Below, in pieces: positions 40,897 to 56,927 of a stretch of 64,000 bases of DNA (the first letter of the stretch is position 1; each line of letters opens with the position of its first letter). The notes beneath the pieces are model-generated. The model did no database searches and had not been told where the DNA came from. It worked only from the letters and a program-made list of their open reading frames with translations. The position numbers and the translations under genes were made by a program. Source of the stretch: Seonamhaeicola algicola (GTDB taxonomy: Bacteria > Bacteroidota > Bacteroidia > Flavobacteriales > Flavobacteriaceae); NCBI RefSeq assembly GCF_007997385.1, contig NZ_VOSC01000005.1, forward strand, positions 1 to 64,000, given 5' to 3'.

Positions 40897-43191
40897 ATGA
40901 GCAAAACACCAAAAGATAGAGCAGCTACTTCAGAGAAGTTTATAAATTTAAAAGTAACCAATCCGCCAAAAAACAGTGTGGGTTTTGGTGCTTTAAAGTC
41001 TGCAGTAACACAGGTTTCAAAATACATGAAACCATCTGATGCTCTTAAAATATCAACAAAAATTAATCAAAAAGGCGGGTTTGACTGCCCAGGTTGTGCA
41101 TGGCCAGATCCAGATGATGAGCGTTCTGCTTTGGGCGAATATTGTGAAAACGGTATGAAAGCCATGGCTGAAGAAGCTCAAAAAAACACCATTGGAGCTA
41201 GTTTTTTTGCAAAACATTCTGTTGATGAATTATCTGAATGGTCAGATTTTGAAATAGGAAAATCAGGAAGGTTAGCAGAACCTATGTATTTGCCTAAAGG
41301 AGCTACACACTACCAACCAATTTCTTGGAAAGACGCTTTCAATAAAGTTGCTACACATTTAAATGCCCTAAATACCCCTGATGAAGCAGTATTTTATACT
41401 TCAGGAAGAACTACCAATGAAGCCGCTTTTTTGTATCAACTATTTGTTAGAGAATATGGTACCGCTAATTTGCCTGATTGTTCAAACATGTGTCATGAAG
41501 CCAGTGGTAAGGCGCTTTCTGAAACATTAGGCATAGGTAAAGGATCTGTTACTTTAAACGATTTGTATAAAGCTGAAGTAGTAATGGTTGTAGGGCAAAA
41601 CCCAGGTACAAACCACCCAAGAATGCTTACAGCGCTTGAAAAATGTAAAAATAATGGCGGAAAAATAATAACTATTAACCCATTAAAAGAGGTTGGTTTA
41701 ATGAAGTTTACCAACCCGCAGAGTCCATTAAAAATGTTGTCAGGTGGTACAGCGTTAACTGATGTTTTTGTGCCAGTAACCATAAACGGCGATGTTGCTT
41801 TTTTTAAAGCAATTCTTCTAAAATTATTAGAAAAAGAAGAAACTACTGGAAATGTATTTGATAAAGCATTTATTAATGAATATACCAGTGGTTATGATGC
41901 TTTTATTAAAGATTTAAAACAATATAGTTTTGATGATTGTTTAAAGGCCTCGGGTGTATCAAAAGCAACATTTAATGCTGTTTTTGATATAATTTTAAAT
42001 AATAATAAAATAATTATTTGTTGGGCAATGGGCTTAACACAACACGAAAATGCCGTAGATAATATTCGTGAGTTGGTTAATTTATTATTGTTAAAAGGAA
42101 GTATAGGAAAAGAAGGCGCAGGAACATGTCCGGTACGTGGGCATTCAAACGTTCAGGGCGATAGAACTGTTGGCATTTGGGAGGCTGCTCCACAAGCCTT
42201 TTTAGATAAAATTGAAGCTAAATACGGCTTTAAACCAACAACAAAACACGGTTATTCTGTTATTGATGCTATTGAAGGCATGTACAAAAAAGAAGCTAAA
42301 GTGTTTTTTGGATTGGGTGGCAATTTTATTTCGGCAGTGCCAGATACCAATTATTCAGCACAAGCGCTAGCAAATTGTAATTTAACGGTACATGTAAGCA
42401 CAAAACTTAATCGTTCTCATTTAGTTACTGGCAAAGAAGCATTAATTTTACCATGTTTAGGAAGGGCTGAAAAAGACTATCAAAAGTCAGGCATACAAAC
42501 CCAAAGTGTTGAAAACTCAATGGGTGTTGTTTCTTCAACAAAAGGTATTTTAGAACCCTGTTCAGATAAAATTATTAGTGAAGTGGCTGTAGTTTGTGGT
42601 ATTGCTAACGCTACATTAAAAAACCGTTCTAAAATAGATTGGTTAGCTTATAAAGATGATTATGCTTTGGTTAGAAATGATATTGAAGAGGTGGTTGATG
42701 GTTTTAAAGATTATAATACAAAACTTAAACAACCCTCAGGTTTTTATTTACCCAATGGTGCTCGTGTAAGGCAGTTTAAAACTAAAACCGGTAAAGCTAA
42801 TTTTAGTATAAATAAATTACCAGAATGGAAATTAAAGCAAGATGAATTGGTAATGATGACAATACGTAGTCACGATCAATTCAATACAACCATTTATGGC
42901 TTAAACGATAGGTATAGAGGTGTTTTTAATGAGCGTCGTATCATATTTATGAATAAAGATGATATGAAATCTCGCGGACTTGAAGAACAGCAAGTAGTAC
43001 AATTACAATCAACATTTAATGGCGTTGTACGTAAAGCAAATAATTTTAAAGTTGTAGGGTATGATATTCCTAAGTATTGTTGTGCTACCTATTTTCCTGA
43101 GGCCAATGTGCTTGTGCCTCTAGATAATTTTGCACATACAGCAAAAACTCCGGCCTCTAAAAGCATAGTAATTACTGTACATGCCAACTAA
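40897..43191 (+). CDS. FdhF/YdeP-type molybdopterin oxidoreductase
   Basis: 764 residues. The N-terminal Fe-S region has FDCPGCAWPDPDD with Cys64 and Cys67, and Cys83 in EYCENG. The Mo-coordinating residue is probably Cys199 in SNMCHEASGKALSE. Further molybdopterin blocks are VGQNPGTNHPRML, CPVRGHSNVQGDRTVGIWE and a C-terminal dinucleotide-binding domain. YdeP-type proteins are formate dehydrogenase-like, but their substrate is mostly unknown. It is cytoplasmic, with no Tat signal. It lies 164 bp upstream of nirB, the only window context in which it makes sense, and may take part in nitrogen oxide or formate metabolism. Confidence 0.88.
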   Translation: MSKTPKDRAATSEKFINLKVTNPPKNSVGFGALKSAVTQVSKYMKPSDALKISTKINQKGGFDCPGCAWPDPDDERSALGEYCENGMKAMAEEAQKNTIGASFFAKHSVDELSEWSDFEIGKSGRLAEPMYLPKGATHYQPISWKDAFNKVATHLNALNTPDEAVFYTSGRTTNEAAFLYQLFVREYGTANLPDCSNMCHEASGKALSETLGIGKGSVTLNDLYKAEVVMVVGQNPGTNHPRMLTALEKCKNNGGKIITINPLKEVGLMKFTNPQSPLKMLSGGTALTDVFVPVTINGDVAFFKAILLKLLEKEETTGNVFDKAFINEYTSGYDAFIKDLKQYSFDDCLKASGVSKATFNAVFDIILNNNKIIICWAMGLTQHENAVDNIRELVNLLLLKGSIGKEGAGTCPVRGHSNVQGDRTVGIWEAAPQAFLDKIEAKYGFKPTTKHGYSVIDAIEGMYKKEAKVFFGLGGNFISAVPDTNYSAQALANCNLTVHVSTKLNRSHLVTGKEALILPCLGRAEKDYQKSGIQTQSVENSMGVVSSTKGILEPCSDKIISEVAVVCGIANATLKNRSKIDWLAYKDDYALVRNDIEEVVDGFKDYNTKLKQPSGFYLPNGARVRQFKTKTGKANFSINKLPEWKLKQDELVMMTIRSHDQFNTTIYGLNDRYRGVFNERRIIFMNKDDMKSRGLEEQQVVQLQSTFNGVVRKANNFKVVGYDIPKYCCATYFPEANVLVPLDNFAHTAKTPASKSIVITVHAN

Positions 43192-43355: not shown

Positions 43356-45872
43356 ATGAAAAAAATCATTGTAGTTGGTAACGGTATGGTTGGTTATAAA
43401 TTTTGTGAAAAATTTGTAGCTCAAGAAAATGCTGAAAATTTTAAAATCATCATTTTTGGTGAAGAACCAAGACCTGCTTATGATAGAGTTCACTTAAGCG
43501 AATTTTTTGAAAATCAAAACGCTAAGGCCTTAGAAATGGCACCAGCAACATGGTATGCAGATAATGGTATTGAATTAATAACCGGTGAACGTGTTGCCGA
43601 TATTAATAGAACCGAAAAAACAATAACTACTGCAAAAGACCGCGAGTTTGCTTATGATTATCTAGTGATGGCAACGGGGTCTTCTCCTTTTGTACCTCCA
43701 ATTAAAGGTGTTGAAAAAGAAGGTGTTTTTGTATACAGAACAATAGAAGATTTAGAAGGTATGTTAGCTTATGCGGCTAAACTTAAAGCAGAAAAACCAA
43801 ATGCTAAAGCAGCTGTTTTAGGTGGTGGTTTACTAGGTTTAGAGGCTGGTAAAGCTGTGTTAGATATGGGTTTAGAGCCGCACATTGTTGAGTTTGCACC
43901 TAAACTTATGCCAAGACAATTAGACACCCGAAGCTCACAAGTTTTAAAGTTGAAATTAGAATCTATTGGTTTAAATATTCATTTAAGTAAAGCTACAAAT
44001 CAAATTTTAGGTGATAAGTTTATTACAGGAATGGAGTTTGGTGAAGATGATATTTTAAATGTTGATATGCTTATAATTTCAGCAGGTATTCGCCCAAGAG
44101 ACGAGTTAGCAAAAGCCTGCGGCTTAGATGTGGGTGTACGCGGTGGTATTGTTGTAGATGATACTATGAAAACTTCAGATGATAACATTTATGCCATTGG
44201 AGAAATTGCACTTTATAATCAAATGATATATGGTTTAGTTGCTCCTGGTTATGATATGGCAGAGGTTGCTGTACAACAAGTTCTTGGTAATTCTGAAGTA
44301 AAAATGGCAGAAGAAATAGACATGTCTACCAAATTAAAATTAATAGGAGTTGATGTTGCTAGTTTTGGAGAACCATTTATGCCGGCTTCAAAGGGGCACT
44401 CAATAATTTTTGAAAATAAAACAGAGTATTTATATAAAAGAATTAATGTTAGTTTAGATGGAAAATCGTTGTTAGGTGGTATTTTGGTTGGTGATGCTTC
44501 AGATTATAACATGCTGCACCAAATGTACCTAAATGATATGAAAATTCCTGAAAATGCAGCACAACTTATTTTACCAGCAAGTGATGGTGCTTCGGCTTTT
44601 GGTGATGTAACAGATTTACCTGATGAAGCCCAAGTATGTTCGTGTGAAAGTGTAACAAAAGGTCAGATATGTGCTGCAATAGAAAATGGAGAAGCAACCG
44701 ATGTTGCAGGCGTTGTTAGCTGTACAAAAGCAGGTACGGGTTGCGGTGGTTGTAAACCTATGGTAACAGATTTAACAAATGCAACACTTAAATCTTTAGG
44801 AATTACAGTTAAAGAAGGTGTTTGTGAACATTTTGATTTAAGCAGGCAAGACTTATACCAAATTATTAAAGTTAAAGGTTACACAACGTTTAATGAGGTT
44901 TTAGATAATCACGGAAATGGGGGTCATGGTTGTGAACTATGTAAACCACTAGTAGCCTCATTAATGGCAACTATAAACGCTGATACTGCCAATAAAGAAT
45001 ATGCTATTCAAGATTCTAATGATAGATTTTTAGCAAACATTCAACGTAACGGAACATACTCTGTAGTGCCGCGTGTTCCTGGTGGAGAAATTACACCAGA
45101 TAAACTTATTGCACTCGGTGAAATTGCCAAAAAATACGATTTATATACCAAAATAACAGGCGGTGTTCGCATAGATTTATTCGGTGCTACACTCAACCAG
45201 TTACCATTAATTTGGAAAGAGTTAATCTCTCATGGCTTTGAAAGCGGTCATGCCTACGGTAAATCACTTAGAACCGTAAAAACATGCGTTGGTTCAACAT
45301 GGTGCCGTTATGGTATGGATGAAAGTGTAAGCTTTGGTATAGAGCTTGAAAATCGTTATCGCGGAATAAGAGCTCCACATAAAATTAAAGGTGGTGTTTC
45401 AGGTTGTATAAGAGAGTGTGCTGAAGCTCGCGGAAAAGATTTTGGTTTAATTGCTGTTGAAGGTGGCTGGAATTTATACGTTGGCGGAAATGGTGGCGCA
45501 ACACCACGTCATGCCGAATTATTAGCAGAGCAAATTGATAACGAAACGGTAATTAAGTACTTAGATAGATACTTAATGTTTTACATGCGTACAGCAAAAC
45601 CATTACAACGTACTGCTGCATGGCAAGAACGATTAGAAGGCGGTTTAAATTATGTAAAAGAAGTTGTCATTGAAGATAAACTTGGTATTGCTGAAGATTT
45701 AGAAAAAGAAATGCAAACCCTTGTTAATAAGTTTGAATGCGAATGGACGCAAGCGGTTAATAACCCCGAAATGATGAAGCGTTTCAACCATTTTGTTAAT
45801 AGTAAAGATGATGATGATAATTTAGTGTTTGTGCCAATGCGCGAACAAAAAATGCCAGAACCTTGGAAATAA
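43356..45872 (+). CDS. nirB: Assimilatory nitrite reductase [NAD(P)H], large subunit
   Basis: 838 residues. FAD/NAD-binding half (1 to about 405) with VVGNGMVG and AVLGGGLLGLEAGKA; a BFD [2Fe-2S] domain (about 427-475) with CSCES and GCGGCKP; a second, partial BFD-like segment ending in GCELCKP (about 525); a ferredoxin-like half domain; and the siroheme/[4Fe-4S] domain with Cys644, Cys650, Cys684 and Cys688. It reduces nitrite to ammonium with NAD(P)H in the cytoplasm. nirD follows 23 bp downstream. No siroheme synthesis genes are in the window. Confidence 0.96.
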   Translation: MKKIIVVGNGMVGYKFCEKFVAQENAENFKIIIFGEEPRPAYDRVHLSEFFENQNAKALEMAPATWYADNGIELITGERVADINRTEKTITTAKDREFAYDYLVMATGSSPFVPPIKGVEKEGVFVYRTIEDLEGMLAYAAKLKAEKPNAKAAVLGGGLLGLEAGKAVLDMGLEPHIVEFAPKLMPRQLDTRSSQVLKLKLESIGLNIHLSKATNQILGDKFITGMEFGEDDILNVDMLIISAGIRPRDELAKACGLDVGVRGGIVVDDTMKTSDDNIYAIGEIALYNQMIYGLVAPGYDMAEVAVQQVLGNSEVKMAEEIDMSTKLKLIGVDVASFGEPFMPASKGHSIIFENKTEYLYKRINVSLDGKSLLGGILVGDASDYNMLHQMYLNDMKIPENAAQLILPASDGASAFGDVTDLPDEAQVCSCESVTKGQICAAIENGEATDVAGVVSCTKAGTGCGGCKPMVTDLTNATLKSLGITVKEGVCEHFDLSRQDLYQIIKVKGYTTFNEVLDNHGNGGHGCELCKPLVASLMATINADTANKEYAIQDSNDRFLANIQRNGTYSVVPRVPGGEITPDKLIALGEIAKKYDLYTKITGGVRIDLFGATLNQLPLIWKELISHGFESGHAYGKSLRTVKTCVGSTWCRYGMDESVSFGIELENRYRGIRAPHKIKGGVSGCIRECAEARGKDFGLIAVEGGWNLYVGGNGGATPRHAELLAEQIDNETVIKYLDRYLMFYMRTAKPLQRTAAWQERLEGGLNYVKEVVIEDKLGIAEDLEKEMQTLVNKFECEWTQAVNNPEMMKRFNHFVNSKDDDDNLVFVPMREQKMPEPWK

Positions 45873-45895
45873 TTAACCTTCTAAAAAATGAAAAC

Positions 45896-46273
45896 ATGGA
45901 AACAATTCTAGATACATACAAAGCAACAAAAATAGAAGCGGTAAACGTTTGGTTTAAAGCAGCATCGGTAAACGATTTTCCGGCAGATGGTGGTGCGTGT
46001 GTTAAATATAAAAATAAGCAAATAGCAGTATTTAATTTTACCAGATTAGGCAAATGGTATGCATGCCAAAACGTGTGTCCGCATAAAATGGAAATGGTAT
46101 TATCGCGCGGTATGATTGGTGATGATAAAGGCATACCAAAAGTAGCTTGTCCATTACATAAAAAAACATTCTCACTAGAAAGTGGTGAAAATTTAAATGG
46201 TGATTTAGGAGCTATTGCAACCTATCCTGTAAAAGTTGAGGGTAATGATGTTTACATTGGTTTTTCAGAGTAA
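45896..46273 (+). CDS. nirD: Nitrite reductase small subunit
   Basis: 125 residues from the ATG at 45896; the frame is open 33 bp further upstream into the nirB end, but this ATG gives normal length. Rieske-like fold with AVFNFTRLGKWYACQNVCPHK and KVACPLHKKTFSLESGE. The Cys-X-His pairs CPH and CPLH are spaced as in a Rieske [2Fe-2S] site, so this small subunit may hold a cluster, unlike the E. coli NirD. It partners NirB. Confidence 0.92.
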   Translation: METILDTYKATKIEAVNVWFKAASVNDFPADGGACVKYKNKQIAVFNFTRLGKWYACQNVCPHKMEMVLSRGMIGDDKGIPKVACPLHKKTFSLESGENLNGDLGAIATYPVKVEGNDVYIGFSE

Positions 46274-46514: not shown

Positions 46515-47102
46515 ATGAAGCCAACCAGATTTGAAACTGCCATAGCATTAATTGATAAAAAAAATTCTGAAGATGTAAACACTTACCAAGTTGGTGGTAT
46601 GAATTACCCTAAAGAATTACTGTATTCTCAGCGCATGACACGCAAATTATTACAGTTTGAACCCAATGCATCAAAAGCATTGCAAATTGCAGCGCGTGCA
46701 CAACATATTTGCAGGTGGCAAATTGCCCGTGATGAATACCCCATGGATAGGGTTGGTTATTTAAAATGGCGTGAAACTTTAAAGAAAATGCATGCTGAAA
46801 TTACATCAGAAATACTTACTAAAGTTGGGTATGATGCGCAGTATATTGAAAGAGTTTCACAATTAATAACCAAGAAGTTAATTAAAAAAAATGAAGAATC
46901 TCAAACACTTGAAGATACAGTATGTTTGGTGTTTTTAGATTATTATTTTGATGAATTTGCAGCAAAGCATGACGATGAAAAGGTTATTGATATTCTTCAA
47001 AAAACATGGAAAAAAATGTCTGAAAAAGGGCATGAGGCAGCTTTAAAACTTAGCTTTTCTAATAAAAACTTACAACTTGTTAAAAAAGCAATTCAAGGTT
47101 AA
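46515..47102 (+). CDS. DUF4202 domain protein
   Basis: 195 residues, all-helical. Conserved blocks: RFETAIALIDKKNSED near the start, YSQRMTRKLLQFEPNASKAL, AARAQHICRWQIARDEYPMDRVGYLKWR and DTVCLVFLDYYF. The HICRW and YPMDRVGYLKWR segments resemble HD-like helical bundles with conserved His, Arg and Trp. DUF4202 genes are, from memory, regularly found next to nitrate/nitrite assimilation genes, as here between nirBD and the sensor kinase, 11 bp upstream of the latter. The role is unknown. Confidence 0.85.
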   Translation: MKPTRFETAIALIDKKNSEDVNTYQVGGMNYPKELLYSQRMTRKLLQFEPNASKALQIAARAQHICRWQIARDEYPMDRVGYLKWRETLKKMHAEITSEILTKVGYDAQYIERVSQLITKKLIKKNEESQTLEDTVCLVFLDYYFDEFAAKHDDEKVIDILQKTWKKMSEKGHEAALKLSFSNKNLQLVKKAIQG

Positions 47103-50289: not shown

Positions 50290-51726
50290 ATGATTAATAT
50301 TCAAGCTCAAAAGGCAACAAAACTATCGCTTTTCAATCTAAAAAACGTTTCAATACGTACATTCTGGATTACCGCCATATCATTCTTCATGTGTTTTTTC
50401 TCATGGTTTGGTATTGTGCCATTTATGCCAGATGTTGTAAAGGATCTTGGTTTAACGCCAGATCAAAAATGGAATTCAATAATATTAGCTGTTTCAGGTA
50501 CTGTATTTGCCCGTTTACTAATAGGTAAATTATGCGATAAATACGGCCCAAGAATGTGTTATACATTTTTATTAATGTTAGGTGCCATACCAGTTATTTT
50601 ATGCGGGTTGGTGCAAACACCAACTCAGTTTTTAGTATGCCGTTTATTTATTGGTTTCATTGGGGCATCATTTGTAATTACACAAGTACACACATCATTA
50701 ATGTTTGCACCAAACATTGTTGGTACTGCTAATGCCACATCGGCAGGTTGGGGTAATCTTGGTGGTGGTGCTAACCGTTTAGGTATGCCAATAATTGCTG
50801 CCGCTGTAGTTGGTTTTGGTGTTGCTGAAGCTGAAGCTTGGAGGTATTCTATGGTAATAGCCGGAACTATTTGTTTTGTAATGGGCTTAGTGTATTACTT
50901 TTTTACGCAAGATACGCCACAAGGTAATTTAAAGGAATTAAGGGCGCAAGGTGTTGAAATCCATAAGAAAAAAGATGAGGTGCCGTTTATAAAAGTTCTG
51001 AAAGATTATAGAATTTGGATATTGTTTTTAGTTTACGCCGCTAGTTTTGGTATAGAACTTACGGTTTATGGTACCATGGATGATTATTTACAAAACACAT
51101 TTCAACTTAAAAGGGTAACTGCCGGTAATATTGTATTGTCATTTGCTTTAATGAATATTTTTGCAAGAACACTTGGAGGCTTTTTTGGTGATAAATTTGG
51201 CAAGCTAAAAGGATTAAGAGGTAGAGTGTTGTTCTTATCGTTTATCCTTTGTGTTCAGGGTGTTATGCTTATTACGTTTTCAACAACTACAAGTATTATT
51301 TTTGGTTTTGTATTTCTAATTCTTTTTAGTTTGAGTGTGCAAATGGCAGAAGGCGCTACATTTTCTGTAGTACCATTTATTAATAAAAAAGCTATTGGTG
51401 CTGTATCAGGTATTGTTGGAGCAGGAGGAAACGTGGGCGCTTTTTTAGCGGCTTTGTTTTTAAAATCTAAATCTGCCATAGCCGAAAAAACAGCAATTTC
51501 ATTAAACAACGGATTAAGTGATGAGGTTGTAAAAGCAGCTCAATCAGCGGCATCATCAGGTGCAGTTTCACAAGGTTATTTTGTAATTGGTTTTATAGTT
51601 TTAATTACGGGCTTTGTGGCTTTAGCAATTAAATTTTCAAAAGAAGAAGATACTATTAATGATGCTTCACAAAATACAAACAAAAATTTAGCTGAAAGTT
51701 TACAACCAGTACAAATAAAAAGTTAA
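50290..51726 (+). CDS. narK: NarK-type nitrate/nitrite transporter (MFS)
   Basis: 478 residues, 12 membrane helices. MFS loop GKLCDKYGPR between helices 2 and 3, and Gly-rich nitrate signatures SAGWGNLGGGANRLGMP (helix 5) and SGIVGAGGNVGAF (helix 11). It imports nitrate with protons and/or exports nitrite. It is the only nitrogen oxide transporter in the window and lies directly upstream of the nitrate reductase. The C-terminal 30 residues are polar and cytoplasmic. Confidence 0.94.
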   Translation: MINIQAQKATKLSLFNLKNVSIRTFWITAISFFMCFFSWFGIVPFMPDVVKDLGLTPDQKWNSIILAVSGTVFARLLIGKLCDKYGPRMCYTFLLMLGAIPVILCGLVQTPTQFLVCRLFIGFIGASFVITQVHTSLMFAPNIVGTANATSAGWGNLGGGANRLGMPIIAAAVVGFGVAEAEAWRYSMVIAGTICFVMGLVYYFFTQDTPQGNLKELRAQGVEIHKKKDEVPFIKVLKDYRIWILFLVYAASFGIELTVYGTMDDYLQNTFQLKRVTAGNIVLSFALMNIFARTLGGFFGDKFGKLKGLRGRVLFLSFILCVQGVMLITFSTTTSIIFGFVFLILFSLSVQMAEGATFSVVPFINKKAIGAVSGIVGAGGNVGAFLAALFLKSKSAIAEKTAISLNNGLSDEVVKAAQSAASSGAVSQGYFVIGFIVLITGFVALAIKFSKEEDTINDASQNTNKNLAESLQPVQIKS

Positions 51727-51972: not shown

Positions 51973-54900
51973 ATGGTTAATAATGAGGTGAAAACAACGT
52001 GCTCTTACTGTGGTGTAGGCTGTGGTATTATTGTAAAAAAAGATAACAATAATAAAGTAATTGTTGAAGGTGATAAAAACCACCCAGTAAACAAAGGAAT
52101 GTTGTGCTCTAAAGGCAGAAATTTACATTATGTTGTTAATGATACTTCTGATAGAATTTTATACCCAGAAATGCGTTGGAGTAAATCGCACCCTTTAGAG
52201 CGTGTAAGTTGGGATACAGCCCTAAATAGAGCCGCAAGTGTATTTAAATCTATAATAAAAAAACATGGGCCTGATAGTGTAGGTTTTTATGTGTCTGGGC
52301 AAAGTTTAACTGAAGAATATTATATAGCCAATAAACTTACAAAAGGATTTTTAGGCACCAATAACATTGATACCAACTCAAGGCTCTGTATGAGTTCTGC
52401 TGTAGTTGGTTACAAAAAGGCATTTGGTGAAGATAGTGTGCCAATTAGTTATGCTGATATTGAATTGGCCGATTGTTTTTTAATAACAGGAGCAAACCCA
52501 GCATGGTGTCATCCTATTTTATTTCGTCGTTTAGAAAAGCACAAAGAAGAAAACCCAAACGTAAAAATAATTGTAGTTGACCCAAGAAAAACTGATACCG
52601 CAAGTTTTGCCGATTTGCATTTGCAAATATTACCAGGTACAGATGTAGTTTTATACAACGCTATAGGCCGTAGGTTATATGACCAAGGTTTAATAGATGA
52701 AGATTTTATAAAAAATAACACCGAAGGTTTTGCAGCATATAAAGCACAAATATTAGCCACAAGAATTAGTAAAGCTGCTAAAATTTGTGGTATTGAAGAA
52801 AAAGAAATAAAAAAAGCAGCCGATATTATAGGGCTATCAAAAGGGTTTATAAGTATGTGGGCTATGGGGCTTAACCAAAGTGTGGTTGGTGTAAATAAGA
52901 ACATAGCCCTATTAAACCTGTCTTTAATTACAGGGCAAGTAGGCAAACCAGGTTCAGGTCCTTTTTCATTAACGGGGCAGCCCAATGCCATGGGAGGTAG
53001 AGAGGTTGGCGGTATGGCAAACCTTTTAGCTGTTCATAAAGATTTAATGAATGAAGAACACCGCAGAGAAGTAGCCCAGTTTTGGGGTGTTGAAAAAATT
53101 AACCCTAAACCCGGTTTAACAGCTACTGAAATGTTTGATGCTTTAGAATCTGGTAAACTTAAAGCTATTTGGATAGCTTGTACAAATCCTCTAGTAAGTT
53201 TACCAAACATTAATAAAGTAGAAAAGGTTATAAAAAATGCAAAGTTTGTTGTAGTTCAAGATATTTCACATAAATCTGACACTGTTAAGTTTGCAGATTT
53301 AGTGTTACCTGCAGCAGGTTGGTTAGAGAAAGAAGGCACTATGACGAACTCTGAGCGTAGAATTTCTTACTTACCCAAAGAAATTGATCCGCCAGGGGAA
53401 GCTAGACCCGATGTTGAAATTTTTTGCGACTTTGCACAACGCATGGGCTTTAGAGGTTTTAACTATGGTTCTGCCGAAGAAATTTATGATGAATATTGTG
53501 CCATGACCAAAGGCACTAATATTGATGTATCTTATTTAAATTATGATAGATTAAAAAACGAAGGCACGTTTCAATGGCCGGTAAATCAATACAGGCACGG
53601 TGGTACTCCAAGATTATTTCAAGATAAAGTGTTTTTTACACCATCAAAAAAAGCAATTTTTAACGTACCAACAACTTTAGAGAATACTTCTGAATTACCA
53701 AACCCAGAATATCCTTTAATACTAACCACAGGCCGTGTAAGAGACCAATGGCATACCATGACAAAAACAGGAAAAGTAGCACGTTTAAAAACGCATTACT
53801 CAAAACCTGTTTTAGAAATTAATCCTGTTGATGCTTATTTGAATAAAATAAAAGATGGTGATATTACTGAAATTACTAGCAGTAATGGTAAAGTTCGGGT
53901 TAGGGCTAAAGTAACCGATGCTATAAAAAAAGGTGTGGTATTTTTACCTATGCATTGGGGTAAGCAATTACAAAACGATTTAAATCGCGCTAATAACCTA
54001 ACAAATACACACGTAGATCCGGTTTCAAAAGAACCTGATTTTAAATTTACACGTGTTAGTGTTTCAAAATATGAAAAGCCTAGAGAAAAAATTATTATTG
54101 CAGGAGCAGGAGCAGCGGCTTTTCGTTTTATTCAAAATTACAGAGAACGAAATGGGAAAGATGAAATTCATGTCTTTTCAAAAGAATCTAACTTGTTTTA
54201 TAACAGGGTTTTGTTGCCTGAGTATGTTACTGAAGAGTTAACTTGGGAGCAGCTTTTAAAAATAAAAAAACAAGAGTTAGATAAACTTAACGTAGTACTT
54301 CACCCAGAAACATTAATTACTCAAATTGATAAATTACAAAAAAAAGTAATTGATAGTAACGGTATAACACATACATACAATAAACTAATTTTAGCAACCG
54401 GAAGTAGAGCTTTTATACCTAAAGATGTACAAATAGATTTGCCTGGGCGTTTTACCATGCGCAATAAAATTGATGCAGATAAATTTAAAGCGTATTTAGA
54501 TGCTACAGGTTTGCCGCCTGAAGAACAGCATGTGGCTATAGTTGGTGGTGGTTTATTAGGTTTAGAGTTGGCAGCGGCCTTAAAACATAAAAATGTAAAA
54601 ATAACCATTATACAAAGAGCATCACGTTTAATGGAGCGTCAATTAGATAAGGTTTCTAGTAAATTACTAGCCTTAGATGTACAAGAACGTGGTATTCAAA
54701 TTTATTTTGATAATGAAGTTAGTACGGTGTTTGATGATGACGATACAGGTGAATTAAGTATAAGCTTAAAAAGTGGAAAAATATTTACAGCCAATGCCAT
54801 TGTATATGCCATAGGTACAAGGCCAAATATTGAAATAGCTAAAGAAAATGGTATTAAATGTGGTAGAGGCGTTATTGTAAATCAGCACATGCAATCTTCA

Positions 54901-55494
54901 AATCCTAATATTTTTGCCATAGGTGAAATTGCTGAATTTAACAATCAGTTATTCGGAATAACATCTGCAGCCGAAGAACAAGCAACTATTTTAGCTAATT
55001 TTATTGGTGGCGATGTTAGTAGCACCTACAACGGTTCTGTTTTAATGAATATTTTAAAGTTTAATGATTTAAACTTGTGTAGTATAGGTGAAATTAGTGT
55101 GCCTGAAAATGATCCAACCTATGAAGAAGTGGTATTTACAGATATATCAAAACGTTACTACAAAAAATGTATAGTTAAAGATGATTTGTTGGTAGGCGCA
55201 GTTTTAATGGGTGATAAAAATGAATTTGCAGAGTTTAAAACACTTATTGAAAGTAAAATTGAAATGTCTGAAAAGCGTAATACATTGCTTAGAGGCGCTT
55301 CAAACAACAAACCCGTAATAGGTAAATTAATATGCTCTTGCAGTCAGGTTGGTGCAGGTAATGTAGAAGAAGCTATAGCTAAAGGGTGTACTGATTTTAC
55401 AGAGCTTTGTAAACAAACCGGTGCTGGTTTAGGTTGTGGTAGTTGTAAAACAGAAGTTAGAGATATACTTCATAAATCTAAGGTGTTAAAATGA
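51973..55494 (+). CDS. nasA: Assimilatory nitrate reductase fused to FAD/NAD reductase and BFD [2Fe-2S] domain
   Basis: 1173 residues. Part 1 (1 to about 695): NasA/NarB/NapA-type molybdoenzyme with [4Fe-4S] ligands Cys10, 13, 17 and 45, Mo ligand Cys139 (SRLCMSSA), and QPNAMGGREVGG. Part 2 (about 705-1090): FAD/NAD(P)-dependent reductase with IIAGAGAAAFRF and AIVGGGLLGLELAAAL, like the N-terminal half of NirB. Part 3 (about 1115-1165): BFD domain with CSCSQV, ELCKQTG and GCGSCK. The chain should therefore take electrons from NAD(P)H and reduce nitrate to nitrite in the cytoplasm by itself. Its stop overlaps the next ATG (ATGA). Confidence 0.93.
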   Translation: MVNNEVKTTCSYCGVGCGIIVKKDNNNKVIVEGDKNHPVNKGMLCSKGRNLHYVVNDTSDRILYPEMRWSKSHPLERVSWDTALNRAASVFKSIIKKHGPDSVGFYVSGQSLTEEYYIANKLTKGFLGTNNIDTNSRLCMSSAVVGYKKAFGEDSVPISYADIELADCFLITGANPAWCHPILFRRLEKHKEENPNVKIIVVDPRKTDTASFADLHLQILPGTDVVLYNAIGRRLYDQGLIDEDFIKNNTEGFAAYKAQILATRISKAAKICGIEEKEIKKAADIIGLSKGFISMWAMGLNQSVVGVNKNIALLNLSLITGQVGKPGSGPFSLTGQPNAMGGREVGGMANLLAVHKDLMNEEHRREVAQFWGVEKINPKPGLTATEMFDALESGKLKAIWIACTNPLVSLPNINKVEKVIKNAKFVVVQDISHKSDTVKFADLVLPAAGWLEKEGTMTNSERRISYLPKEIDPPGEARPDVEIFCDFAQRMGFRGFNYGSAEEIYDEYCAMTKGTNIDVSYLNYDRLKNEGTFQWPVNQYRHGGTPRLFQDKVFFTPSKKAIFNVPTTLENTSELPNPEYPLILTTGRVRDQWHTMTKTGKVARLKTHYSKPVLEINPVDAYLNKIKDGDITEITSSNGKVRVRAKVTDAIKKGVVFLPMHWGKQLQNDLNRANNLTNTHVDPVSKEPDFKFTRVSVSKYEKPREKIIIAGAGAAAFRFIQNYRERNGKDEIHVFSKESNLFYNRVLLPEYVTEELTWEQLLKIKKQELDKLNVVLHPETLITQIDKLQKKVIDSNGITHTYNKLILATGSRAFIPKDVQIDLPGRFTMRNKIDADKFKAYLDATGLPPEEQHVAIVGGGLLGLELAAALKHKNVKITIIQRASRLMERQLDKVSSKLLALDVQERGIQIYFDNEVSTVFDDDDTGELSISLKSGKIFTANAIVYAIGTRPNIEIAKENGIKCGRGVIVNQHMQSSNPNIFAIGEIAEFNNQLFGITSAAEEQATILANFIGGDVSSTYNGSVLMNILKFNDLNLCSIGEISVPENDPTYEEVVFTDISKRYYKKCIVKDDLLVGAVLMGDKNEFAEFKTLIESKIEMSEKRNTLLRGASNNKPVIGKLICSCSQVGAGNVEEAIAKGCTDFTELCKQTGAGLGCGSCKTEVRDILHKSKVLK

Positions 55495-56927
55495 GTATAC
55501 AATTAAACAGACTTATAGTTAAAGGTGGTGTATTATCTCCCGGAGAATTAAAATACATTTGTGAATGTGTTGAAGCCATTGGGTTAAAAACAATATCATT
55601 TGGTTCGCGTCAAGATATTTTGTTACCAAAAAAAGCAACACAAGAAAAACTTAGTGGTTTTGATAGGTTGAAAATTGTATCTGAAGAAGAAACAGGTATT
55701 TCTAACATTATGTCTTCATATGTATCGGCCGATATTTTTCCTAACACACCTTGGTTAACAAGTGATAAGTATTTATATATCTTAGAACTTTTTAGGGCAA
55801 AATTACACTTAAAGGTAAATATTACAGACCCCAAACAGCGGTTAGTGCCATTATTTACAGGGCATATAAACTTTATAGCCTCACAGCATGAAGATTATTG
55901 GTATTTGTATATAAGGTTGCCAGAATGGGAAAAGACTAAAATGTATCCGGCATTAATTTACAGTTGGGATATGGGTAAAATAGTTGCCGCAATTGAAAGT
56001 ATTTTACAAGAAGAACCTGAAACTATTGAAACAATTTTTGAACTTGTTAGTGATGCTGTAGATTCTAACAATAGAACGGTAGATAAACCACTTGAAGTTC
56101 CTTTTCACCCATTTCCTTATTATGAAGGTATGAATAAAATTGGTATGGATAAATACTGGTTAGGGTTGTATTGGAGAAATAATAAGTATGATATTTCTTT
56201 TTTAAAAGAAATGTGCGAGTTATGTTTAGAAAATAAAATAGGTAAAATATCAATAACCCCATGGAAATCTTTTATAATTAAGGGTATACCAAGAACATCA
56301 AAACTAATTTGGGAAAAATTTTTGGGTAAACGAGGTATTAATGTACGCCATTCTATGTTAGAGCTTAATTGGCATATTCCTGCGGCAAATAAAGAGGCTT
56401 TAAATCTAAAAAAATATTTAGTATCAAACTTTGATCAAAATGATATAAGTACCTATGGTTTAACCTTCGGGATAACAAATTATGCTAAAACATCTCACTA
56501 TTTTACATCAATAGTTATTGAAAAAAATAAACAACCAGCACCCATTGGAGATTTCAAAATAAGAGATACATACAACCTGTTATACGCTAAAAATTTTGAT
56601 CCTAATACACGCACATATATTATGCATGTGCAAGATGTAGATAAAGTTGAATTACCAGGGCTTTTAATGGAATTAAGCCAATTATACTTTGAAGATTTAG
56701 GATCGGAAAAAGAAGCACAAGAAACCAAAAAAACGCCTAAGCAAATTACAGAAGAGGTGTACCAATGCACATCATGTTTAACGGTTTATAACCAAAAATA
56801 TGGAGATATTACACAAAACATTGCACCTTTAACACCTTTTGAAAGTTTACCCCAAACATATTGTTGTTCACTTTGTGAAGCTCCAAAATCTAATTTTGAA
56901 AAGAAAGAGTTGGTCAAACAGCATTAA
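55491..56927 (+). CDS. Siroheme-less nitrite/sulfite reductase-like protein with C-terminal rubredoxin
   Basis: 478 residues. Residues about 10-46 (GVLSPGELKYICECVEAIGL, then FGSRQDILLP) and about 217-267 (YWLGLYWRNN, then GKISITPWKSFIIKGI) look like the two ferredoxin-like half domains of sulfite/nitrite reductases and CobG. The Cys-x5-Cys and Cys-x3-Cys ligands for siroheme/[4Fe-4S] are absent. The C-terminus is a rubredoxin with exact C-x2-C-x29-C-x2-C spacing (Cys426, 429, 459, 462) plus YGD, FESLP and K-x-x-F. It is translationally coupled to the nitrate reductase. It probably carries electrons or has a structural role for it; not a working siroheme enzyme. Confidence 0.82.
   Translation: MSIQLNRLIVKGGVLSPGELKYICECVEAIGLKTISFGSRQDILLPKKATQEKLSGFDRLKIVSEEETGISNIMSSYVSADIFPNTPWLTSDKYLYILELFRAKLHLKVNITDPKQRLVPLFTGHINFIASQHEDYWYLYIRLPEWEKTKMYPALIYSWDMGKIVAAIESILQEEPETIETIFELVSDAVDSNNRTVDKPLEVPFHPFPYYEGMNKIGMDKYWLGLYWRNNKYDISFLKEMCELCLENKIGKISITPWKSFIIKGIPRTSKLIWEKFLGKRGINVRHSMLELNWHIPAANKEALNLKKYLVSNFDQNDISTYGLTFGITNYAKTSHYFTSIVIEKNKQPAPIGDFKIRDTYNLLYAKNFDPNTRTYIMHVQDVDKVELPGLLMELSQLYFEDLGSEKEAQETKKTPKQITEEVYQCTSCLTVYNQKYGDITQNIAPLTPFESLPQTYCCSLCEAPKSNFEKKELVKQH

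Follow-up and report, generated by a model that had tools for sequence, protein, structure and literature searches.

A sulfite/nitrite reductase-like protein with a C-terminal rubredoxin and without siroheme ligand motifs, encoded beside a fused nitrate reductase in Seonamhaeicola algicola

The gene and the fold of its product

The window considered here is a stretch of 64,000 nucleotides from Seonamhaeicola algicola (contig NZ_VOSC01000005.1, assembly GCF_007997385.1), in which an intact open reading frame (ORF) at 55491-56927 on the + strand encodes a protein of 478 amino acids (aa), with a body resembling sulfite reductases (SiR) and nitrite reductases (NiR) and a rubredoxin at its C-terminus. 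Its ATG overlaps by 4 bp the TGA of the gene for a 1173-aa nitrate reductase, here called NasA (51973-55494), as had been noted in a preliminary description of the sequence, in which the protein was taken for a dead siroheme enzyme turned into an electron carrier or assembly factor for nitrate reductase. The genes upstream of the nitrate reductase gene, all on its strand, are nirB, nirD, a DUF4202 gene, a PilJ-type sensor kinase gene, a Rid-family gene, a response regulator gene (named from its sequence) and narK. The search 3' of the 55491-56927 gene gave no terminator-like site, and promoter-like matches for it occur at chance level only. The features are listed below; counts out of 104 refer to an alignment of the window's own sequence with 103 relatives.

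55491..56927, + strand: SiR/NiR-like protein with C-terminal rubredoxin, 478 aa (ORF, Pfam, hhalign, Foldseek; the RefSeq name of two plasmid relatives is 'rubredoxin')
55509..55628, + strand: first ferredoxin-like half domain (NIR_SIR_ferr, residues 7-46), with invariant R40-Q41 at the position of CysI T115-N-R117-Q
55671..56105, + strand: first NIR_SIR-like half (about residues 61-205), with invariant N72, W88, N110, D113, Q116, G124, N127 and W137; PF01077 unmatched
56106..56345, + strand: second ferredoxin-like half (about residues 206-285), with invariant P209, E212, G213, W223, R229, C242, C245, T256-P257 and K259
56214..56225, + strand: C242-x2-C245, in 104/104 sequences; by the CysI alignment not a siroheme/cluster ligand position
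56346..56702, + strand: second NIR_SIR-like half (about residues 286-404), siroheme/[4Fe-4S] cysteine motifs missing
56760..56897, + strand: rubredoxin domain, C426-x2-C429-x29-C459-x2-C462; sole PF00301 match in the genome
51973..55494, + strand: fused nitrate reductase, a [4Fe-4S]/molybdenum bis-molybdopterin guanine dinucleotide catalytic part with a NirB-like flavin adenine dinucleotide (FAD)/reduced nicotinamide adenine dinucleotide (NADH) module, Rubredoxin_C and BFD [2Fe-2S]
50290..51726, + strand: NarK-type nitrate/nitrite transporter
43356..45872, + strand: NirB, siroheme nitrite reductase, C-x5-C and C-x3-C motifs intact
45863..46273, + strand: NirD, Rieske-like small subunit, with both C-x-H and C-x2-H

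The two SiR/NiR-like halves proposed in the preliminary description are borne out by profile and structure comparisons alike. Pfam places NIR_SIR_ferr (PF03460, E 1.1e-7) on two stretches of the protein, the best at residues 7-46, and leaves PF01077, the siroheme/cluster half domain, unmatched at E<=1. In hhalign, residues 2-410 of the 104-sequence profile align with residues 78-549 of Escherichia coli CysI (probability 94.7, E 6e-8, 19% identity), the template being built from CysI and three NirA-type proteins; a second placement, and a match to the single-half NirB (probability 6.8), were weak and were left unused. A first AlphaFold2 model of all 478 residues, made from 45 sequences (predicted local distance difference test, pLDDT, 60; predicted template modelling score, pTM, 0.44), was replaced by a trimmed model of residues 1-412 made from 79 sequences (pLDDT 67, pTM 0.59). 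Searched against the PDB with Foldseek, the trimmed model returned 31 chains at E<=1e-3, all of them sulfite or nitrite reductases and the best at E 1.4e-13, with a template modelling score of 0.52 of the query and a root-mean-square deviation of about 12 Å that makes the predicted placement of residues unreliable. The top 31 matches of the first model were likewise SiR/NiR, followed by rubredoxins. Two ferredoxin-like and two NIR_SIR halves are present in one fold in the 478-aa protein. Loops 285-299, 317-328, 330-340 and 367-378 of the trimmed model have pLDDT below 50, and neither model is accurate enough for the positions of C242/C245 or of the cavity residues to be read from it.

What the body has lost are the cysteine motifs of the siroheme/[4Fe-4S] centre. 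In CysI, we take C434, C440, C479 and C483, at positions given by the alignment, to hold the siroheme/cluster centre; neither C-x5-C nor C-x3-C occurs in the C-terminal half (residues 284-404) of any of the 104 sequences, 92 of which have no cysteine there at all, and no column of this region holds more than seven. PF01077 is also missing at the gene's place in all 23 carrier genomes at E<=0.001, in a search of 28 genomes that did match NirB and other reductases. Since the motif of the sulfite reductase centre, given as CX5CXnCX3C in PMC10229431, was looked for and is absent, the 478-aa protein, going by its sequence, does not belong among the siroheme reductases, and the missing ligands of the preliminary description are upheld.

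Whether 'dead' is the right word for such a body is another matter. Each of N72, S76, W88, N110, D113, Q116, G124, N127, W137, P209, E212, G213, W223, R229, T256, P257, K259, H287, E291 and N293 is kept in at least 102 of the 104 sequences, and an alignment of 14 diverse members shows no variation at 36 positions of residues 1-404, counting the start methionine. The second ferredoxin-like half, with 14 of its 80 positions invariant among 21 representatives below 70% identity, holds C242-x2-C245, a CxxC new to the fold, found in every sequence and absent from the preliminary description. With the four anion-binding basic residues numbered in CysI as we assume them to be, the site can be followed through the alignment: R7, at CysI R83, is R or K in 102/104; position 106, at K215, is K or R in 74/104; K/R108, at K217, is basic in 103/104; and the position of R153 is E, Q, N or P in 99/104 and never R or K. 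R40, at CysI R117, is kept in 104/104, as is the R40-Q41 pair of the TxRQ motif. Three of the four positions of the former anion site are mostly basic, in an alignment at 19% identity; in sulfite reductases, four Arg/Lys bind the anion (PMC10229431). Because the polar set is conserved, three of the four anion-site positions are basic and an invariant CxxC has been gained, the residues argue that the body is not a decayed scaffold, and 'dead' goes too far, even though the loss of the siroheme ligand motifs stands.

The rubredoxin is clear (PF00301, E 6.3e-13, residues 424-469), with PDB rubredoxins matching the C-terminal domain at E down to 3.3e-8 and with cysteines C426, C429, C459 and C462 in the C-x2-C-x29-C-x2-C spacing first described for it. 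All four cysteines are kept in 103/104 sequences, the central spacing being x29 in 99, x28 or x31 in three and x15 in one. By its motif, the domain is predicted to bind iron and to be redox active. Across the whole genome, the gene of the 478-aa protein is the only PF00301 match, and therefore any rubredoxin-dependent transfer would have to use this protein.

Linkage to NasA and distribution with NirB

The neighbouring NasA carries, in Pfam order, Molybdop_Fe4S4, Molybdopterin and Molydop_binding, then Pyr_redox_2, Rubredoxin_C (E 1.7e-22) and BFD [2Fe-2S]; over residues 707-1169 it corresponds to the first 468 positions of the NirB model (E 9.7e-95). A NasA match is present in 103/104 loci of the SiR-like gene. 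Among the 91 loci at which the distance was measured, the NasA stop overlaps the start of the SiR-like gene in 65 (by 4 bp in 28 and by 1 bp in 37), a gap of 1-201 bp separates them in 25, and the last has 954 bp with a 269-aa ORF between. For the other 13 loci no gap was computed; in one of these, L102 (genome G091), the two genes stand about 600 bp apart, with a 167-aa ORF in between. A 269-aa ORF between NasA and the SiR-like gene is a feature of L103/L119 (genome G190), the locus whose rubredoxin is shortened to C-x2-C-x15-C-x2-C.

A scan of genome contigs found 78 loci, the genera and bins in whose titles were taken as Flavobacteriaceae. Of 12 plasmid records matched, four were counted (Persicobacter twice, Hymenobacter and Spirosoma), these having the whole protein, and the other eight, from Bradyrhizobium, match its rubredoxin region; the body alone as query returned the same four. 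Beside the two annotated plasmid copies lie a transporter (MFS or NarK) and nitrate reductase, and one Persicobacter record has NarK and NasA matches beside the SiR-like gene; the second Persicobacter match (H2) stands outside the 104-sequence alignment. In an alignment-based scan of viral contigs, seven pattern matches were obtained and no relative.

Two draws of genomes show how the gene is distributed. In a phylum draw of 296 Bacteroidota genomes, 23 have the full body, 27 a fused NasA and 22 NirB, and all 22 NirB genomes hold both the SiR-like gene and the fused NasA (94 genomes matched, of which 71 do so in the rubredoxin region only and were not counted). The expected co-occurrence with fused NasA in Bacteroidota is found in 22 of these 23 carriers. 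A class draw of 395 Bacteroidia genomes, searched for the SiR-like gene and NirB, has 21 carriers, and each of its 20 NirB genomes is one of them; of the 38 genomes matching, the remaining 17 gave weak matches (E 4e-5 or more) in brief segments of other proteins. As 11 NirB genomes are common to both draws, 31/31 distinct NirB genomes carry the SiR-like gene, and these span ten family labels (f1, f3, f4, f5, f8, f9, f10, f23, f51 and f61). NirB itself is sometimes on the opposite strand or on another contig (G182, G249, G190). Co-occurrence by chance is excluded by count (hypergeometric 2.5e-32, in a test that ignores kinship). The linkage to fused NasA that led to the protein being called a partner of nitrate reductase is real, but the partnership is not with NasA alone, as the distribution of the gene in the draws is that of NirB, a co-occurrence of which the preliminary description made no mention.

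The sole carrier without NirB, G126, appears in both draws. Its copy (L104/L118, contig 4, 273-1556) starts 273 bases from the contig end, and the three forward frames that follow it encode no rubredoxin; the genome has no NirB at threshold and no NasA at E<=1e-60. The copy is apparently a relic, or else a body with another use.

Candidate roles in nitrate assimilation

The SiR-type siroheme half of NirB receives its electrons from a FAD/NADH/[2Fe-2S] module. The fused NasA carries a module of the same kind, and the 478-aa protein would offer it a SiR-type surface on which rubredoxin iron replaces siroheme. The reading that we tentatively prefer, at somewhat less than an even chance, derives the protein from a two-half sulfite/nitrite reductase that lost its siroheme and, jointly with this, sees in it a docking body by which the rubredoxin is brought up to NirB-like FAD/[2Fe-2S] modules in an electron relay within nitrate assimilation. 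Its observed basis is the fold, the loss of ligand motifs, the rubredoxin motif, the overlap with NasA, the co-occurrence with NasA and NirB and the sole rubredoxin match of the genome; from these we infer both the docking on a NirB-like module and the direction of electron flow. Electrons would pass from NADH to FAD and the [2Fe-2S] centre of NasA (or NirB), then to the rubredoxin iron, and from there to the [4Fe-4S]/Mo centres of NasA or to the cofactors of NirBD. A dock and relay for NirB-like modules, serving NasA and possibly NirB, would be the simplest reading.

With CysI/NirA (PF03460 and PF01077, each twice) the 478-aa protein shares the full-length two-half fold, the TxRQ arginine and, by alignment, part of the anion site, but it lacks C-x5-C/C-x3-C in its C-terminal half and any PF01077 match, and it has a new CxxC and a rubredoxin. 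With NirB it would share a SiR-type half served by a FAD/NADH/[2Fe-2S] module, which here is on the adjacent NasA; NirB, however, has the ligand motifs and one SiR half, whereas the 478-aa protein, with its two halves, lacks both these motifs and a flavin module in its own chain. Pfam finds no Pyr_redox or BFD domain on it, and it is hence not a NirB-type single chain.

A further parallel is NasG of Paracoccus denitrificans, presumably a Rieske-type protein and, to our knowledge, one without a SiR-like body. PMC4724949 calls NasG a ferredoxin and proposes that it takes electrons from the NADH site of NasB and passes them on for the reduction of both nitrate and nitrite, as a small redox carrier of a nitrate-assimilation cluster that serves both reductases. 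In S. algicola too, a small redox domain is encoded with assimilatory nitrate and nitrite reductases, and by analogy electrons are predicted to pass through it, so that nitrate and nitrite reduction might share one redox partner; the carrier here is a rubredoxin rather than a ferredoxin, and NirD is also present.

There are several points that weigh against a dock and relay. Among the 104 sequences, one (L104) has no rubredoxin and another (L103) a shortened one. Rubredoxin_C on NasA is no proof of rubredoxin reduction, being usual in NirB-type proteins too. Five fused NasA (G219, G050, G008, G155 and G179; 49-55% identical), all in NirA-type genomes, are without the SiR-like gene, and because these do without it and have the same ligand cysteines where aligned, internal transfer in NasA does not strictly need the partner. 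NirD, with both Rieske ligand motifs present, could already be the shared ferredoxin. A mere dock, moreover, leaves many invariant polar residues and the CxxC unexplained. Finally, the co-occurrence is compatible with function, and equally with inheritance of one gene cluster without direct interaction.

A fuller form of the same idea, which we consider rather unlikely, is a shared redox hub, in which the SiR body would dock on NirB-like flavin modules and hold an anion in its old cavity, with the rubredoxin passing electrons between the nitrate and nitrite reductases.

Sequence cannot decide between an electron carrier and an assembly factor, the two roles first proposed. As an assembly or maturation factor, the protein would use its CxxC and its old tetrapyrrole cavity to supply NasA or NirB with sulfur, siroheme or an Fe-S cluster. 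The invariance of the CxxC, the co-distribution with the siroheme-requiring NirB and the presence of cobA next to the SiR-like gene on the Hymenobacter plasmid and in L072 all point in this direction, as does the example of FdhD, which acts through a CxxC on related molybdoenzymes. Against it, E. coli makes NirB and is not known to have such a protein, and a rubredoxin is not typical of chaperones. The fused NasA without a partner speak against it too: their cluster-ligand cysteines, where alignable, agree with those of NasA with a partner (the window and 15 loci, drawn from the 91 that yielded NasA), the N-terminal cluster being compared in four of the five as the N-terminus of L117 is unaligned there. 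This weakens a maturation role for NasA, and we consider such a factor unlikely overall. The same agreement rules out a rubredoxin that stands in for a cluster lost from NasA. At nine other positions, among them G1150 beside the BFD cysteines, NasA with and without a partner do differ. The five partnerless genomes have no NirB, and two-half NIR_SIR genes (frames of about 595-680 aa) lie within a few kb of their NasA.

The basic residues of the former anion site would fit a partner that handles nitrite, binding it there and holding or channelling it from NasA to NirB, which would limit free nitrite and nitric oxide, with the rubredoxin sensing or supporting the process. Three of the four positions are largely basic, R40-Q41 is kept throughout, and in 22 of the 23 carriers of the phylum draw the nitrite producer NasA and the consumer NirB are both present. 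The position of CysI R153 is never basic, however, a site without siroheme iron would be weak, and the CysI alignment that defines the site is at 19% identity, all of which make this role distinctly unlikely. An active enzyme with a different cofactor, in which the CxxC and invariant polar residues would make up a metal or redox site of a new kind, with the tethered rubredoxin as its electron source, might explain why residues 1-404 hold more identical positions than a bare scaffold would seem to need and why C242/C245 are kept in every sequence, but there is no recognisable cofactor site, the low-pLDDT loops of the model prevent the placing of residues, and the idea is improbable.

A literature search recognised no account of the 478-aa protein or of its SiR-like body. 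The legend of Figure 3 in PMC8199190, a review on nitrate-sensing kinases, includes 'rub, rubredoxin' among the genes near nitrate-metabolism genes whose involvement is not clear, which agrees with a rubredoxin gene in this setting; the legend text does not mention a SiR-like body. Within the literature searched, the SiR-derived body, the missing ligands, the invariant CxxC and the co-distribution with NirB appear to be undescribed, and no description was found of the electron wiring between NADH-linked nitrate and nitrite reductases in Bacteroidota. A third protein, present with NirB in all 31 genomes and named just 'rubredoxin' in RefSeq plasmid records, is a pathway component whose larger part is unnamed, and would be an example of a SiR/NiR fold that functions with no siroheme.

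Further genes near the nitrate reductases

Four of the five partnerless NasA (L113, L114, L115 and L116) adjoin proteins that look reductase-like by reading of their sequence, of about 205 and 435 aa (both sizes in L113, L114 and L116; 457 aa in L115), which share the start motif APF[TS]xxQRxWLN and are possibly split CysJ-like flavoproteins.

In the window, the ORF at 40897-43191, upstream of nirB, encodes a 764-aa protein that reads as FdhF/YdeP-type molybdopterin oxidoreductase-like. The DUF4202 gene lies at 46515-47102, 3' of nirD; DUF4202 is found in 14 of 15 loci with a nirD match (L002, L003, L007, L012, L076 and others), directly behind nirD in 13, and on the Hymenobacter plasmid it adjoins cobA rather than nirD. 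Between 47114 and 50123 lie the PilJ-type sensor kinase, which has PAS and no HAMP match, and the response regulator, with the Rid-family gene between them; the kinase agrees with the HAMP-less nitrate sensors of Bacteroidetes, as these are outlined in PMC8199190.

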